From a virus: a stretch of 26,379 nt of DNA. Of the stretch, positions 2,291 to 20,111 are shown piece by piece. The stretch lies in the IMG/VR virus record IMGVR_UViG_3300027734_000277, positions 1 through 26,379 of that record. The stretch is one strand, 5' to 3'. The notes under the pieces were generated by a model. That model saw only the letters and a list, made by a program, of their open reading frames with translations, had not been told where the DNA came from and did no database searches. The first letter of the stretch is position 1. Each line of letters begins with the position of its first letter. The position numbers were made by a program, and so were the translations under genes.

Positions 2291-2926
2291 ATGGCTTATA
2301 GTCGTGGAACATCAACCAATATTATTGTAGGTGCTGCAGCATTCTTTATGGCAGACACAACTTTAGTACCAACAGTAACTCCATCATTCGTGGGTTCAGC
2401 ATCATACAGAGAGACTCTCTCTTCTAGTGCAACATATGACAATGTAGGTTACACAACCAACGGACTTGAAATGCAGTTCCAACCAGACTTCGGTGAAGTC
2501 CAGGTAGACCAGATTCTTGACGTTGCTAAACTTTACAAGCAGGGAATGCAAGTTAGCGTTGCAACTGCTTTTGCTGAAGCCACTCTAGAGAACCTTCTAT
2601 TGGCTCTAGCAGGCAATAACGATGATTTGACTGGAACAAAGTCTTCATCTACTGGCCGTATCTTGAACCTTTCTGCTGGTGACATTGGAGAATGTCCAGT
2701 TGAACGTGGTATTGTTGCTGTAGGACCAGGCACAGGCGACTGTGACGATTCTGCTGCAGTAGAGCGTGTATACATTGGATACCGTGCTCTATCAATTGAA
2801 AACGTAACAGTTTCAGCAAAGCGTGATGAGGCTTCAATGTTTGAAGTATCATTCCGTCTTCTACCAGAAGATACATCAGGAACATACGGAAAGATCATTG
2901 ACCGTACACACACAGTTGCATCATAA
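2291..2926 (+). CDS. Major tail tube protein
   Basis: A 211-residue beta-rich protein with an N-terminal SRGTSTNIIVGAAAFF segment, a central helix (DQILDVAKLYKQG) and alternating strands, as expected of a tube subunit that stacks in hexamers around the tape measure. The context is strong: it follows the terminator-like gene and precedes two assembly chaperones and the tape measure gene. Expression signals are also those of a major virion protein: own extended -10 promoter, near-complete Shine-Dalgarno sequence, strong terminator directly downstream. Eight of its nine arginines use CGT, against AGA in most neighbours, as in genes under selection for high translation. I cannot exclude an additional domain, but the length is normal for a simple tube protein. 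Confidence 0.8.
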   Translation: MAYSRGTSTNIIVGAAAFFMADTTLVPTVTPSFVGSASYRETLSSSATYDNVGYTTNGLEMQFQPDFGEVQVDQILDVAKLYKQGMQVSVATAFAEATLENLLLALAGNNDDLTGTKSSSTGRILNLSAGDIGECPVERGIVAVGPGTGDCDDSAAVERVYIGYRALSIENVTVSAKRDEASMFEVSFRLLPEDTSGTYGKIIDRTHTVAS

Positions 2927-2930
2927 TAAT

Positions 2931-2992
2931 GTTGCAATAATCTAGTTTTAGATTACAACTAGCCCACTTCCTTAATTGGAGGTGGGTTTTTT
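2931..2992 (+). terminator. Rho-independent terminator with a preceding hairpin
   Basis: The main hairpin is CCCACTTCC (2963-2971), a 6-base loop, then GGAGGTGGG (2978-2986), nine pairs with one G-U, followed by six T (2987-2992). Two more weak pairs can extend its base. Just upstream is a second inverted repeat, TAATCTA (2938-2944) and TAGATTA (2949-2955) around GTTT, which GTTG (2931) and CAAC (2956) can lengthen. It separates the tail tube gene from the chaperone genes. Confidence 0.9.
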
Positions 2993-2997
2993 GTTTG

Positions 2998-3006
2998 TGG
3001 TAGAAT
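2998..3006 (+). promoter_or_regulatory. Extended -10 promoter, probably giving a leaderless chaperone mRNA
   Basis: TGGTAGAAT fits the extended -10 pattern with one mismatch in the hexamer. It starts only six bases after the T-run of the terminator, so transcription stops and restarts here. The ATG at 3014 is seven bases beyond the hexamer, at or within a base or two of the expected start of the RNA. No Shine-Dalgarno sequence lies between; the GGAGG at 2978-2982 belongs to the terminator stem and would not be in this RNA. Confidence 0.55.
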
Positions 3007-3013
3007 TGATAAG

Positions 3014-3733
3014 ATGGCCACAAGAATATATAAGTCAGATATTATTACATTAATAGATGGCGAGAAGATAGAGATTTATCCCTTAAAGATTAAATATCTT
3101 AGGGAGTTTATGGAAGCATTCCATTTAATTAAACAATCAGAGAATGACCTTCAGTCAATATCCTATTTATCAGAGTGTGCAAGAATTGCTATGCAACAGT
3201 ATAAACCAGAAATTGCAAAAACAATTGAAGACCTTGAAGATAATGTTGATCTACCTACAATATATAAAATAATTAATATTGGTGGGGGCATTAGCGTTAG
3301 CGGGGAAGCAGAAGAGCCAGTAAAAGAACAGGCTTTAAATGATAAAAATAATAGTAGCGGGTGGGATGATCTAGACTTAGCAAAGTTAGAGTCAGAGATA
3401 TTTTTGCTGGGTATATGGAAAGACTATCAAGAACTAGAGGCAAACATTTCAATGCCTGAACTTGTAGCAACACTAGCATCAATTAGAGACTTAGATTATC
3501 AGGAAAAGAAATTTCTTGCAGCAATTCAGGGTGTGGATTTAGACGGGGAAACAAGTAAAGACAAAGGTCAAAAAGAGTGGGAAGACATGAAAGCAAGAGT
3601 CTTCAGCGGTGGTAAAGCAACAGATAGCAATGACGTTCTGGCATTACAAGGAGTCAACGCTCAAAAGGCAGGGTTTGGAATCGGCATGGGTCTTGACTAT
3701 GGCGATGAAAGAGACCCAAGCCTAATGAAATAA
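3014..3733 (+). CDS. Tail assembly chaperone, long form (N-terminal domain plus C-terminal extension)
   Basis: A 239-residue protein with two parts. Residues 1-98 share a domain with the whole of the next gene: IITLIDG, PLKI, LR-FM, IAM-QYKPE, IE-LED and DLPT-Y-II occur in both. After a polar linker (about 98-115) comes a region with LLGIWKDYQELEA and KKFLAAIQGVDLD and a Gly-rich end (QKAGFGIGMGLDYGDE). Chaperones of long-tailed phages are normally made as a short G-type form and a longer GT-type form by ribosomal frameshifting, and the long form brings tape measure and tube subunits together. Here the long form is one continuous frame. It lies between the tube gene and the tape measure gene, as expected. 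Its start probably lies at the 5' end of the mRNA, which would make expression lower than for the short form. Confidence 0.75.
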   Translation: MATRIYKSDIITLIDGEKIEIYPLKIKYLREFMEAFHLIKQSENDLQSISYLSECARIAMQQYKPEIAKTIEDLEDNVDLPTIYKIINIGGGISVSGEAEEPVKEQALNDKNNSSGWDDLDLAKLESEIFLLGIWKDYQELEANISMPELVATLASIRDLDYQEKKFLAAIQGVDLDGETSKDKGQKEWEDMKARVFSGGKATDSNDVLALQGVNAQKAGFGIGMGLDYGDERDPSLMK

Positions 3734-3764
3734 ATATTAAATAAATTAAAAATCAGCGTGTTCA

Positions 3765-3773
3765 TGCTATAAT
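3765..3773 (+). promoter_or_regulatory. Extended -10 promoter for the short chaperone (and perhaps the tape measure gene)
   Basis: TGCTATAAT is a perfect extended -10 match in the 65-base gap between the two chaperone genes. No -35 box is evident. The predicted RNA start is near 3780, leaving a leader of about 19 bases that contains the ribosome binding site GAGAGGAAG (3788-3796) before the ATG at 3799. I see no terminator between here and the tape measure gene, so this promoter probably serves both. Confidence 0.65.
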
Positions 3774-3798
3774 TGAGGTAACTTACTGAGAGGAAGTT

Positions 3799-4128
3799 AT
3801 GACTACAACAGTTCATGAAGAAAAAATAATTACCCTGATTGATGGAACAAAGATCAAGGTAAGACCTCTCAAGATCTCACTTTTACGTAAATTTATGAAG
3901 AAGTTTGAGGGCTTGGGGGCAGTCCAAAATGATAACGATAAGTCTATGACACTTTTGATTGAGTGTGTAGCAATCGCTATGGAGCAGTATAAGCCAGAGT
4001 TGGGGGAAAGCATTGAAAAACTTGAGGATGTAATTGATCTTCCTACGGTTTATTCAATCATTGAGGCAGCATCTGGAATTAATCTTTCAGATACCGCTTT
4101 ACTCGCTTTAGCACAAGAAGAACTTTAA
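3799..4128 (+). CDS. Tail assembly chaperone, short form (paralogue of the preceding gene's N-terminal domain)
   Basis: A 109-residue protein that aligns along almost its whole length with residues 1-98 of the upstream long chaperone, with one single-residue gap and by eye 40-50% identity. It stops at about the point where the long protein enters its linker, and no reading frame after it encodes anything like the long protein's C-terminal part. It therefore looks like the G-type form, made from its own gene. A clear Shine-Dalgarno sequence and a perfect extended -10 promoter precede it, so it should be made in larger amounts than the long form, the ratio expected of G over GT. The tape measure gene begins 20 bases after its stop. 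Confidence 0.75.
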   Translation: MTTTVHEEKIITLIDGTKIKVRPLKISLLRKFMKKFEGLGAVQNDNDKSMTLLIECVAIAMEQYKPELGESIEKLEDVIDLPTVYSIIEAASGINLSDTALLALAQEEL

Positions 4129-4148: not shown

Positions 4149-7100
4149 ATGGCAGGAGATACAAATAGCAATATTTTTATAAATATTGATACCTCACAAG
4201 CAATGACGCAACTGCGTCTTCTTGAAAAGGAACTCACTGCTCTTAACCGCTCCCTCATCGTTGGAACAAAGACTGCATCTGCAGCACAATCAAAGTACGC
4301 ACAATCTCTTTTACATAATGTAAATGCCACTGGTCAGTGGACCGCTTCAATGACAAGAATGAGCACTGCCTCTGAGCAGTTTGCTAATAGACTTGATAAA
4401 CAAAAACTTTCACTCAAAGAATACTTTAGATATGGTGCTGCATCTACCAAGACATTTGGAAAGATGTTTGGCAGTGAATTTGATACGATTGGAAAGTTAG
4501 TTGATAAGCGTGTAAAGACACTGCAGCAACAATATGTCCAATTAGGACGTGATGCACAAGGCGCTATGAACGCCATGAAGTTTACACCAAAGGCACTTAA
4601 CTATAATAATTTAACAACACAGTTAATGGCTGCAAGCCAACGTCATCAGATATTTAATAAACTTATAGATGATGGCTCAACAAAACTACTTAACTTTGGT
4701 AAGAATACTCAATGGGCTGGTCGCCAACTTATGGTTGGTTTTACTATTCCACTTATGTTGTTTGGCTCACAAGCAATTAAAACATTTAAGGAAATTGAAA
4801 CACAAGTAATTAGATTTAAAAAAGTTTATGGAGATATTTTTACAGATCAAGGAGCAACTGCTGCTGCTTTAAAAAATATTCGTGACCTTGCTGATGAATA
4901 TACAAAGTATGGACTTAAGGTTTCAGATACAATCAAGATGGCAGCAGATGCTGCAGCAGCGGGTTTCTCTGGTCAAGGACTACAAACACTTGTAGAACAA
5001 ACAAATAAACTTGCAGTACTTGGTGGAGTAACACAAGAAAAGGCATTAGAAACTACAATTGCTTTAAAGAATGCTTTCCAAATTGATACAGGCGCTATGT
5101 CTGGCACAATTGATTTCCTTAACGCCGTTGAAAACCAAACTGTTGTAGCACTTGACGATTTAACAGAAGCAATTCCAAAAGTTGCACCAGTTATTCAGCA
5201 ACTAGGTGGAGACGTAAAAGATCTTGCATATTTTATGGCTGCAATGCAAGAAGGTGGAATATCTGCAGCACAGGGTGCTAACGCACTTAAGTCAGGACTT
5301 GCATCTTTAATTAATCCAAGTAATGCTGCTTCAAAGGCTGCTGCTGCCGTTGGAATTAATATTAAGGGTATTGTTGAAGCCAATGCTGGTAATTTAAGAA
5401 ATACTGTTACATCATTTGCAAAAGCATTACAACCACTTACAGATCTTGAAAGATCAAGAGTAATTGAAAAAGTATTTGGAAAGTATCAGTTTGCTAGAAT
5501 CTCTGCACTATTAAATAACATTGGAAGAGAAGGAACACAGGCTGCTCGTGTACTTCAACTAACAAATGCATCTGTTGAAGAACTTGCAATCTTAAGTCAA
5601 CGAGAATTAAAAATTCAAGCAGATTCTCCAATGAATAAATTTGTTGGATCTGTAGAAAGATTAAAAGCAGCCATTGCTCCAATTGGTGAATTATTTGCTA
5701 AAGTACTCACACCAGCACTTGAATTTATATCAAGAATGGCTGATAAATTTAACAGTCTGCCAGATGGAATAAAAAAGGCTATTGGAATTATAACTGTTGT
5801 TGTTGGTGGACTAGGCCCACTATTCTTAATGACATTTGGCTTGCTTGCAAACGCAGTTGCAAATTCAGTTAAAGGTTTGCAGGTATTAAGAAAAGGCTAT
5901 CAACAGTTAGCCTATGGATCAAGTGATGCAGCATTAAAAACACAGTATCTATCACAAGAAGAACTAGAAAATATTTCTATTAGCAATGCGCTTTATTCTA
6001 AGCATCAACAATTATCTGCAGCATACCAACTAGAAGCAGCAGCACTTACATCTTTAACAAACGTTTATAGAGGTGCTTCTGTAGCCATGGGTGGTTTTGC
6101 AGGACAGAATCCAGGATTATTTATACCTGGAAAAGGCGGTATGCCAAGACGATTTGCATCAGGAACAACTTCAGTACCAGGTCCAAAGGGAGCAGGAGAT
6201 GTAGTTCCATCTATGCTATCTCCTGGAGAAGCAGTTATTCCAGCAAAACAGTCAAAAAAGTATTCAGGATTTATTGGTCAAATAATTAAAGACAAGGTTC
6301 CAGGTTTTGCTGGAGGGTTTATGCCTTTTGGTGCAGCAGCAACAGTTGGAAAAGGCATTCCACTATCAGCAGGCCCAGCAGCATTTCGTGAAGCACAGCA
6401 GGCTAGGTATGCAGCAAGAGATGCTGCCCGTAGAGGACTATCTTCAAACGTTGCACCAGTAGTTCCAATCTCTTCAAGACTTTCAGGAATTAGATATTCT
6501 GCTGAAGGATCAAAGGTTCGTGTTTCAGTTGGAGATGAGTCATTCTTAATTCCAGCATCAAAACTTGATAACTTTAAATCAAAACTTAAAGAAAACGAAG
6601 CCTGGATGATCGCTAATAAGCGAACAGACAATACAGAGCAAGAATTACTTCGCACAATCAAAAGAAAGGGCTATGGAGGAAAAGAAGTTTCTCCTAGCAC
6701 AATTTATTCAAGACTTCCTAAGTTTAGCAATGCAAGAAACAGTCAGCAGAATCAAGATATTGCAGATAAAAGATTTAAAGCATTGCTTAAATCAAAGAAT
6801 CCACACCTTCTAAAACTACAAAACTATTTAGTAAATGAAGAAAAAGTTTATCTTGAAAAGGTTTTAGGACAAGATATTGTTAAATCTTTAAAGGGATGGG
6901 ATGTTAATAAATTAACACCAAGTCATATTAGAGAAGTTAGATCACAAAATCGTACACCAGAAGACTGGGCACCAAGTAAAATTGCAAGAGACTGGGGTTG
7001 GTTTAACTCTGGGTTAAGAGGAACAAAATTTGCAAACATAAAGGGTGGTCATCCTCTTAATGCTGCACAAGCAAGAGAGTTGCTAACTAATCTAGGAAAG

Positions 7101-19227: not shown

Positions 19228-19652
19228 TGGCTGATGCTAATATTAAAAAACTTAGGGTGTTAAAGTCATCACTGCCACCAATTGATCACGATACAGAAAA
19301 ATATAATATTCGTTATAGAGTTATATCTGAAGATAGAAACAGAGTTTCTCACTGGTCTCCAATATATAATTCAGATGGCGTTGATCTTGTTGTAACAAGT
19401 GGAGCAGTATCTAAGGCAGGAAACATAATTACAGCAGTATGGGGAGATCAAAATGATTTTCCAGAATACGATGTCTTTGTTAAGTTTGACTCAAATGACT
19501 TTTTTTATCATGGAAAATCAAAAGTCCATTCGTATTCATTTTTAAAAACTGGGACTACATCGGTTAGAGTAAAGGTTCAAATCATTTCATCAAAAAAAGA
19601 AATTAAAGAAGCACTAAATATCTTCGACTCTGGCACAGTGTCTTTGATATAA
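19227..19652 (+). CDS. Small tail protein with fibronectin type III-like pattern
   Basis: A 141-residue protein. The segment YNIRYRVISEDRNRVSHWSP has the strand and Trp/Ser spacing often seen in fibronectin type III-like domains of phage tail proteins, and the rest alternates strands and turns. Such domains usually act as surface adhesion modules or spacers. Its start overlaps the fibre gene stop (TAATG), so it is probably translated together with the fibre gene and may decorate or assist it. The next gene has its own promoter inside its last codons. Confidence 0.45.
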   Translation: MADANIKKLRVLKSSLPPIDHDTEKYNIRYRVISEDRNRVSHWSPIYNSDGVDLVVTSGAVSKAGNIITAVWGDQNDFPEYDVFVKFDSNDFFYHGKSKVHSYSFLKTGTTSVRVKVQIISSKKEIKEALNIFDSGTVSLI

Positions 19653-19653
19653 T
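19645..19653 (+). promoter_or_regulatory. Extended -10 promoter before a small beta-rich tail protein
   Basis: TGATATAAT is a perfect extended -10 match overlapping the end of the preceding gene. RNA would start near 19660, practically at the Shine-Dalgarno sequence AGGAGG (19659-19664), leaving a leader of about 11 bases before the ATG at 19671. Confidence 0.6.
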
Positions 19654-19670: not shown

Positions 19671-20111
19671 ATGGCAAAAGTACCACTACCTGAAAGAGGA
19701 CAACCTCTTGATGTTACATATATTTATCAGTTAGTTGAGGCAGTTAATTTTTTATCAACCCAAATATCTGATGCAACATACAACTATACAGATGTTGATG
19801 TTGTTGGAGGAGAAAAACAAAGTTTAAAAACATCTAATACAAAGTTTATTGGAAAGTTTAAATCAATTGCAAATAATGAAACGGTAACAGCAGGTCAAGA
19901 AAAATCCTACTCTATTGATTATTCTAACTTTAAGTTTCCACCAATCGTAACTTTGTCTATTGTTAATACAAGTGGTACAACAGCAGGCGCAAATACTACT
20001 GTAGTTCTTACATCTGTTACCACAACTCAGTCTAACTTTACAGTAAAGTATGGTGTATCTGGAACTGCAACTATTGGAATAAATCTAATTGCTATTGGAG
20101 TTCCTAACTAG
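19671..20111 (+). CDS. Small beta-rich virion protein, probably abundant
   Basis: A 146-residue protein. A short helical N-terminus (TYIYQLVEAVNFLSTQI) is followed by a Ser/Thr-rich beta domain ending in GTATIGINLIAIGVPN. The motif FKFPPIVTLSI and the regular strands recall small H-type lectin-like or fibre-tip domains of phages, with the N-terminal helix as a possible trimer stem. It has its own extended -10 promoter and a canonical AGGAGG, unlike its tail-tip neighbours, which rely on coupled translation. It is therefore probably needed in more copies, as a fibre, decoration or receptor-binding protein. The exact role cannot be read from the sequence. Confidence 0.5.
   Translation: MAKVPLPERGQPLDVTYIYQLVEAVNFLSTQISDATYNYTDVDVVGGEKQSLKTSNTKFIGKFKSIANNETVTAGQEKSYSIDYSNFKFPPIVTLSIVNTSGTTAGANTTVVLTSVTTTQSNFTVKYGVSGTATIGINLIAIGVPN

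Follow-up and report, generated by a model that had tools for sequence, protein, structure and literature searches.

Frameshifting in tail assembly chaperone genes is widely conserved, and chaperones of the gpG/gpGT kind are absent from virions; the tail chaperone genes of T4 are genes 26 and 51. In lambda, both forms come from a single gene by -1 frameshifting, at a gpG/gpGT molar ratio of about 30:1 (PMC5009743). In some T4-like phages a short gene and a fused long gene take the place of frameshifting, according to a study reported in PMC10885494 (Vladimirov, Gautam and Davidson, 2022), so that, on that account, separate short and fused long genes are not new in principle. Microbacterium phages of cluster EA have two chaperone ORFs, separately expressed without evident frameshift (PMC7302621). 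Our search of the open-access literature returned no description of a duplicated case related to actinophages, nor of a leaderless arrangement.

The window, that is, the whole stretch of DNA analysed (26,379 nucleotides), is a 26.4-kb virus record with a G+C content of 36%. By sequence and predicted structure, two adjacent genes in it encode gpGT-like and gpG-like tail assembly chaperones; the phage is long-tailed and a relative of the actinophage family Stanwilliamsviridae (Table 1). A previous reading of the sequence alone (the sequence-only reading) had proposed a long and a short gene with a common N domain, the long form lying in one frame and nothing after the short gene being able to provide an extension by slippage. 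Both ORFs are as claimed: the two N domains share 50% identity (70% positives, E=2e-32 over ~100 N-terminal residues), the long ORF holds the N and the C domain, and a C-domain profile search found no match downstream of the short gene in any frame of the plus strand. The arrangement of N + C followed by N is not an accident of assembly, since 246 fetched loci, with 168 distinct protein pairs among them, show it again.

Table 1. Positions of the features of the chaperone locus in the window.
Feature	Position	Strand	Remarks
Major tail protein homologue, upstream neighbour	2291..2926	+	profile matches to phrog_2175 (E=7e-34) and to phrog_885, major tail protein (E=2e-4); annotated major tail proteins matched in tblastn
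Intrinsic terminator, gap between major tail protein and long chaperone genes	2961..2988	+	11-pair stem and T-run; -22.2 kcal/mol, z=-5.9
Extended -10 TGGTAGAAT (TGG-TAGAAT) of the long gene	2998..3006	+	ends 7 nt before the long ATG; predicted leaderless transcript
Long tail assembly chaperone, gpGT-like, 239 aa, N + C domain in a single frame	3014..3733	+	phrog matches, tblastn, fold match
TTTAAAT, canonical heptamer in the long gene	3334..3340	+	-1 frame gives an immediate TGA; not conserved
C domain of the long gene	3359..3730	+	alignment with -1-frame C domains of Streptomyces phages
-35-like TTAAAA of the short gene's promoter	3746-3751	+	
Extended -10 TGCTATAAT (TGnTATAAT type), short gene's own promoter	3765..3773	+	TATAAT in relatives
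Shine-Dalgarno AGAGGA of the short gene	3789..3794	+	
Short tail assembly chaperone, gpG-like, N domain only, 109 aa	3799..4128	+	phrog_10504 E=1e-21
Tape measure protein, 2822 aa	4149..12617	+	20 nt past the short gene; homologous to annotated tape measure genes that relatives have in the same place

The chaperone identity draws on several kinds of evidence that agree with each other. Profile searches of both proteins, a check proposed in the sequence-only reading, matched phrog_10504 with the N part of the long protein (E=1e-20) as well as with the short one, and phrog_10474 with the C part (E=1e-14). In tblastn against annotated phages, 132 records were found (127 Streptomyces, 5 Rhodococcus; best E 8e-25), many of them annotated as tail assembly chaperones. 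The AlphaFold model of the long protein has a pLDDT of 84-90 across most of the N domain, and its fold matches, among the predicted viral structures of BFVD, a tail assembly chaperone of an uncultured phage (E=9e-4) and N15 gpGT (E=0.017, probability 0.93); chaperones of other phages match less well. Pfam gave no family above cut-off for the pair, the PDB nothing usable by sequence search and no significant match by fold search, and the bacterial genomes scanned for the long protein contained no relative. As expected of the gpG/gpGT kind, the genes stand directly between those of the major tail protein and the tape measure, the two forms have a common N domain with a C-terminal extension in the longer one, and both are homologous to annotated tail assembly chaperones. 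The tape measure ORF of the window is very long; by the usual rule of about 0.15 nm of tail per tape measure residue, the tail would measure roughly 420 nm. By analogy with lambda, the N domain would bind the tape measure and the C domain the tail tube protein (PMC5009743).

About 400 related loci, collected from annotated phages and IMG/VR scans, were sorted by one uniform classification. Two states were found: a duplicated state (246 loci), in which the major tail protein gene is followed by N + C in one frame and then by N, and a frameshift state (132 loci), in which the C domain follows an N gene in the -1 frame; the two states are not combined in any of the about 400 loci. The same contig gives some loci more than once, and the distinct protein sets number 168 duplicated and 111 frameshift; the conservation counts given below refer to distinct sequences, among which related ones nevertheless remain, and the loci are non-independent samples. 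Loci with a missing part are cut by a contig end, and no complete relative with a fused long gene lacks the short one. One locus, L386, was considered as a carrier of two short genes and set aside, its overlapping frames suggesting an indel in one short gene. The frameshift products that the sequence-only reading had proposed for related actinophages do exist in related Streptomyces and Rhodococcus phages. A single N gene is followed there by a C domain in the -1 frame; this holds for all 18 cultured or isolate relatives examined, and in Emma1919, Sham, NiceHouse and Francesca the chaperone is annotated as a two-piece join. Uncultured close relatives are also of the frameshift type, with CCCAAAC-type heptamers. 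In two loci (L271 and L189) the gap between the major tail protein and N genes extends to 1196 and 520 nt, respectively, compared with about 85-120 nt in relatives, perhaps through insertion of a gene, for instance one for a homing endonuclease.

The two states differ in their slippery sites, as shown by the comparison with related phages that the sequence-only reading had called for. A canonical zero-frame heptamer lies within the N/C overlap in 101 of the 111 distinct frameshift loci (75 CCCAAAC, 15 CCCAAAT, 6 AAATTTG and 5 GGGAAAN), against a background of 19 in 10528 codons upstream. The other 10 belong to Streptomyces phages of the Boydwoodruffvirinae or near relatives (L002, L164, L167-L169, L172, L173, L176, L177 and L179). 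Loci of this type typically have CCCGGAA at the place of CCCAAAC, so that their frameshift site may be non-canonical, and several of the records annotate the N and C parts as separate genes. At the duplicated loci, any heptamer near the junction is found in 3/168 short genes and in 22/168 long genes, where the heptamers are of ten kinds and the DNA is A-rich. Two other runs were rejected as slippery sites: the GGTGGGGGC run at 3281-3289 contains no canonical X XXY YYZ in register and near relatives have GGTGGCGGT, while the AAA AAA run at the junction of many long genes (encoding NKKS) is mostly T AAA AAA and is broken by synonymous and amino-acid changes.

The expression signals of the two genes are conserved and opposed. 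The terminator before the long gene has counterparts in the same gap of 20 sampled relatives, with terminator-like energies from -20 to -28 kcal/mol. A -10 element scoring at least 5 of 7 is located 5-10 nt before the ATG of the long gene in 144 of 145 distinct relatives (at least 6 in 128), while random ATGs from the loci reach at least 5 in 644/12450 cases (5%) and at least 6 in 102/12450. The element lies 6-9 nt from the ATG in relatives, and a -10 ending 5-10 nt before an ATG places the transcription start at or next to the start codon; the transcript of the long gene is predicted to be leaderless. This element departs from consensus: TATAAT occurs in 23 of 149 distinct relatives, the usual form being TAGAAT, TAAAAT or TATACT, and the -35 match is poorer than in short genes. 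No good Shine-Dalgarno precedes the long genes (matches of 0-4 nt, mostly 3). Among the 20 genes listed in the window, no other has a close -10 of score 6 before its ATG.

Short genes, in contrast, are preceded by TATAAT in 150 of 152 distinct relatives and by a Shine-Dalgarno match of 4-8 nt in 141/141. The N genes of frameshift loci have a promoter type and a Shine-Dalgarno like these, and the nearest of them show a mean identity of 54% to the short proteins and 42% to the long ones. For these reasons the ancestral locus seems to live on in the short gene, and the long gene seems to be the copy that acquired an in-frame C domain, its leaderless start having arisen perhaps by deletion of the leader. 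Some duplicated loci (L028, L119, L133-L137, L142, L146, L151 and similar ones) have only 26-28 nt between the long and short genes; the TATAAT of the short gene there overlaps the end of the long gene, so its TAA can be the long gene's stop codon. Further TGNTATAAT boxes are present in the window at 2220-2228, some 60 nt upstream of the gene for the major tail protein, and at 19645-19653, where the gene at 19671 follows after 17 nt and has an AGGAGG; the three matches to TGNTATAAT are not above chance by count.

Phylogenetic trees indicate the direction of change. With cultured outgroups only, the N domains of long and short genes each form one clade, and the two are mutual sisters (100/99). 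When uncultured frameshift relatives are included, long genes (100/97) and short genes (100/94) again form one clade each, and the clade that encloses both (97/96) also contains 15 frameshift genes, with an unsettled branching order; forcing long and short genes together costs 0.17 log units, a constraint that the AU test does not reject (p-AU 0.49). In the tree of the major tail protein the duplicated phages form no clean clade (L295 falls inside and L303 outside; p-AU 0.25), likely because of recombination or long branches, and for this reason a second neighbour, the gene in the tail-terminator position, was used. In its tree the duplicated phages are one clade (98/90) that adjoins frameshift phages, with only frameshift phages outside. 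The outgroups (Rhodococcus, two Streptomyces subfamilies and a second uncultured clade) all use the -1 arrangement. Duplicated genes are thus nested inside a frameshift lineage, which bears out the proposed change from recoding to duplication; duplication replaced recoding apparently once, and one duplication within a frameshift lineage is the simplest history. The virus L295 (N 6001-6327; C 6300-6650) is of the frameshift type, and its major tail protein groups with those of duplicated-type viruses, including the window, while its gene in the tail-terminator position groups with frameshift viruses; adjacent tail genes may have recombined here.

Other histories can be read into the same trees. 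The second copy might be a xenologue, acquired from another phage by recombination and not by tandem duplication, and the sister relation between long and short genes, unsettled once the uncultured relatives are included, leaves room for it, as does the possible recombination of tail genes in L295. Both copies, however, fall in the same well-supported clade and are sisters when the intermediates are left out, which makes an origin by transfer unlikely. A change of this sort is in principle reversible, so that the duplicated state could be the older one and frameshifting its derivative, and the major tail protein does place a frameshift virus, L295, close to duplicated ones; nonetheless, with the -1 arrangement in every outgroup, such a reversed order is hardly credible.

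Apart from its history, the present working of the locus could also be explained differently. The sequence-only reading had named a slippery site in the long gene, giving a truncated form, as something that would speak against it, and such a site is found in the window: TTTAAAT is canonical, the TGA that follows at once in the -1 frame would release an N-only protein, and the fold of the 92 nt downstream is somewhat more stable than that of shuffled sequences (-20.0 kcal/mol, z=-2.8). Recoding might in this way persist beside the short gene. Yet relatives whose long proteins are 99-100% identical have CTTAAAT or CCTAAAT instead, and since a synonymous change removes it there, the site is not maintained. 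Moreover, the few junction heptamers of the long genes are of mixed kinds on an A-rich background, and a truncated product would be redundant, given that every complete relative has the short gene; residual frameshifting is accordingly quite improbable. About equally improbable is that the short gene is a paralogue with a new task and no equivalent of gpG, the long form working alone. The divergence of the N domains (39% mean identity between long and short) could point in this direction, but the short gene retains the ancestral promoter type and Shine-Dalgarno, its N domain is closer to the frameshift type than that of the long form, and it is never missing where the long gene is fused.

The explanation preferred here, an ancestral -1 frameshift followed by duplication, with the N + C fusion upstream, N alone downstream and a ratio most likely set by initiation, is highly probable as a whole. 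In the ancestor a single gene would have supplied both forms, ribosomes slipping into the -1 frame at a CCCAAAC-type site. One of its lineages would then have duplicated this gene; the upstream copy would have become an in-frame N + C fusion, and the downstream copy would have lost the C domain but retained the N domain together with the promoter type and Shine-Dalgarno of the ancestor, the slippery site disappearing from both. The ratio of the products would now most likely depend on initiation, the long gene standing after a terminator with a weaker, leaderless start, and the short gene having an extended -10 of consensus form, with a good Shine-Dalgarno, besides lying downstream of the long gene's promoter.

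In this sense, initiation and not slippage probably sets the long/short ratio. That unequal initiation, from a leaderless sub-consensus promoter for the long form and a consensus promoter with a Shine-Dalgarno for the short one, took over a ratio formerly set by slippage is reasonably likely. The suggestion that promoter and start strength determine the ratio has strong comparative support in the opposed conserved signals, whereas the ratio itself stands as a prediction. In Mycobacterium smegmatis, leaderless reporters were expressed at lower levels than those with either 5' UTR tested, partly via the mRNA level (PMC7148126), a result that fits a scarce long form without proving it. Because translation of leaderless mRNAs can equal that of some leadered ones (PMC7148126), the direction of the ratio, like the abundance of each chaperone form, is what we infer. 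Since both states survive among relatives, the switch and the setting of the ratio are directly testable, and close relatives that still frameshift allow the swap, the loss of the slippery site and the new regulation to be traced step by step. All this suggests that what selection maintains is the proportion between the two forms and not the mechanism of recoding; if initiation did take over the ratio, the benefit of recoding could be studied by comparing living relatives of the frameshift and the duplicated type.

Compared with known systems, the pair resembles lambda gpG and gpGT in having a short N and a long N + C form encoded beside the tape measure gene; lambda uses one gene with -1 frameshifting, while the window has two genes. 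The chaperones of Stanwilliamsviridae (Streptomyces phages such as Emma1919 and Sham) are clearly homologous to those of the window in both domains, and those of Trinavirus (Rhodococcus) more distantly. Both occupy the same place, between the major tail protein and the tape measure; unlike the window, they have a single N gene, and their C domain is read in the -1 frame. The window lacks the combination that defines the Stanwilliamsviridae type, namely a single N gene, a -1 C domain and a slippery heptamer. The cluster EA phages of Microbacterium are like the window in that their chaperone ORFs apparently work without frameshift, although they are not described as an N plus N + C duplication (PMC7302621). 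As far as PMC10885494 describes them, some T4-like phages have a similar arrangement, with a short N gene and a longer N + C gene instead of a frameshift, and the window has the short gene, the fused long gene and the want of a conserved slippery site that mark this kind. They are unrelated, contractile-tailed phages, likened here by arrangement and with no claim that the pair belongs to the T4 lineage, and the window differs from them in its adjacent genes, its surviving frameshift relatives and its split between a leaderless and a Shine-Dalgarno start. What is new in the present case is the independent origin, the survival of frameshift relatives for comparison, and the conserved, opposed expression signals of the two genes.
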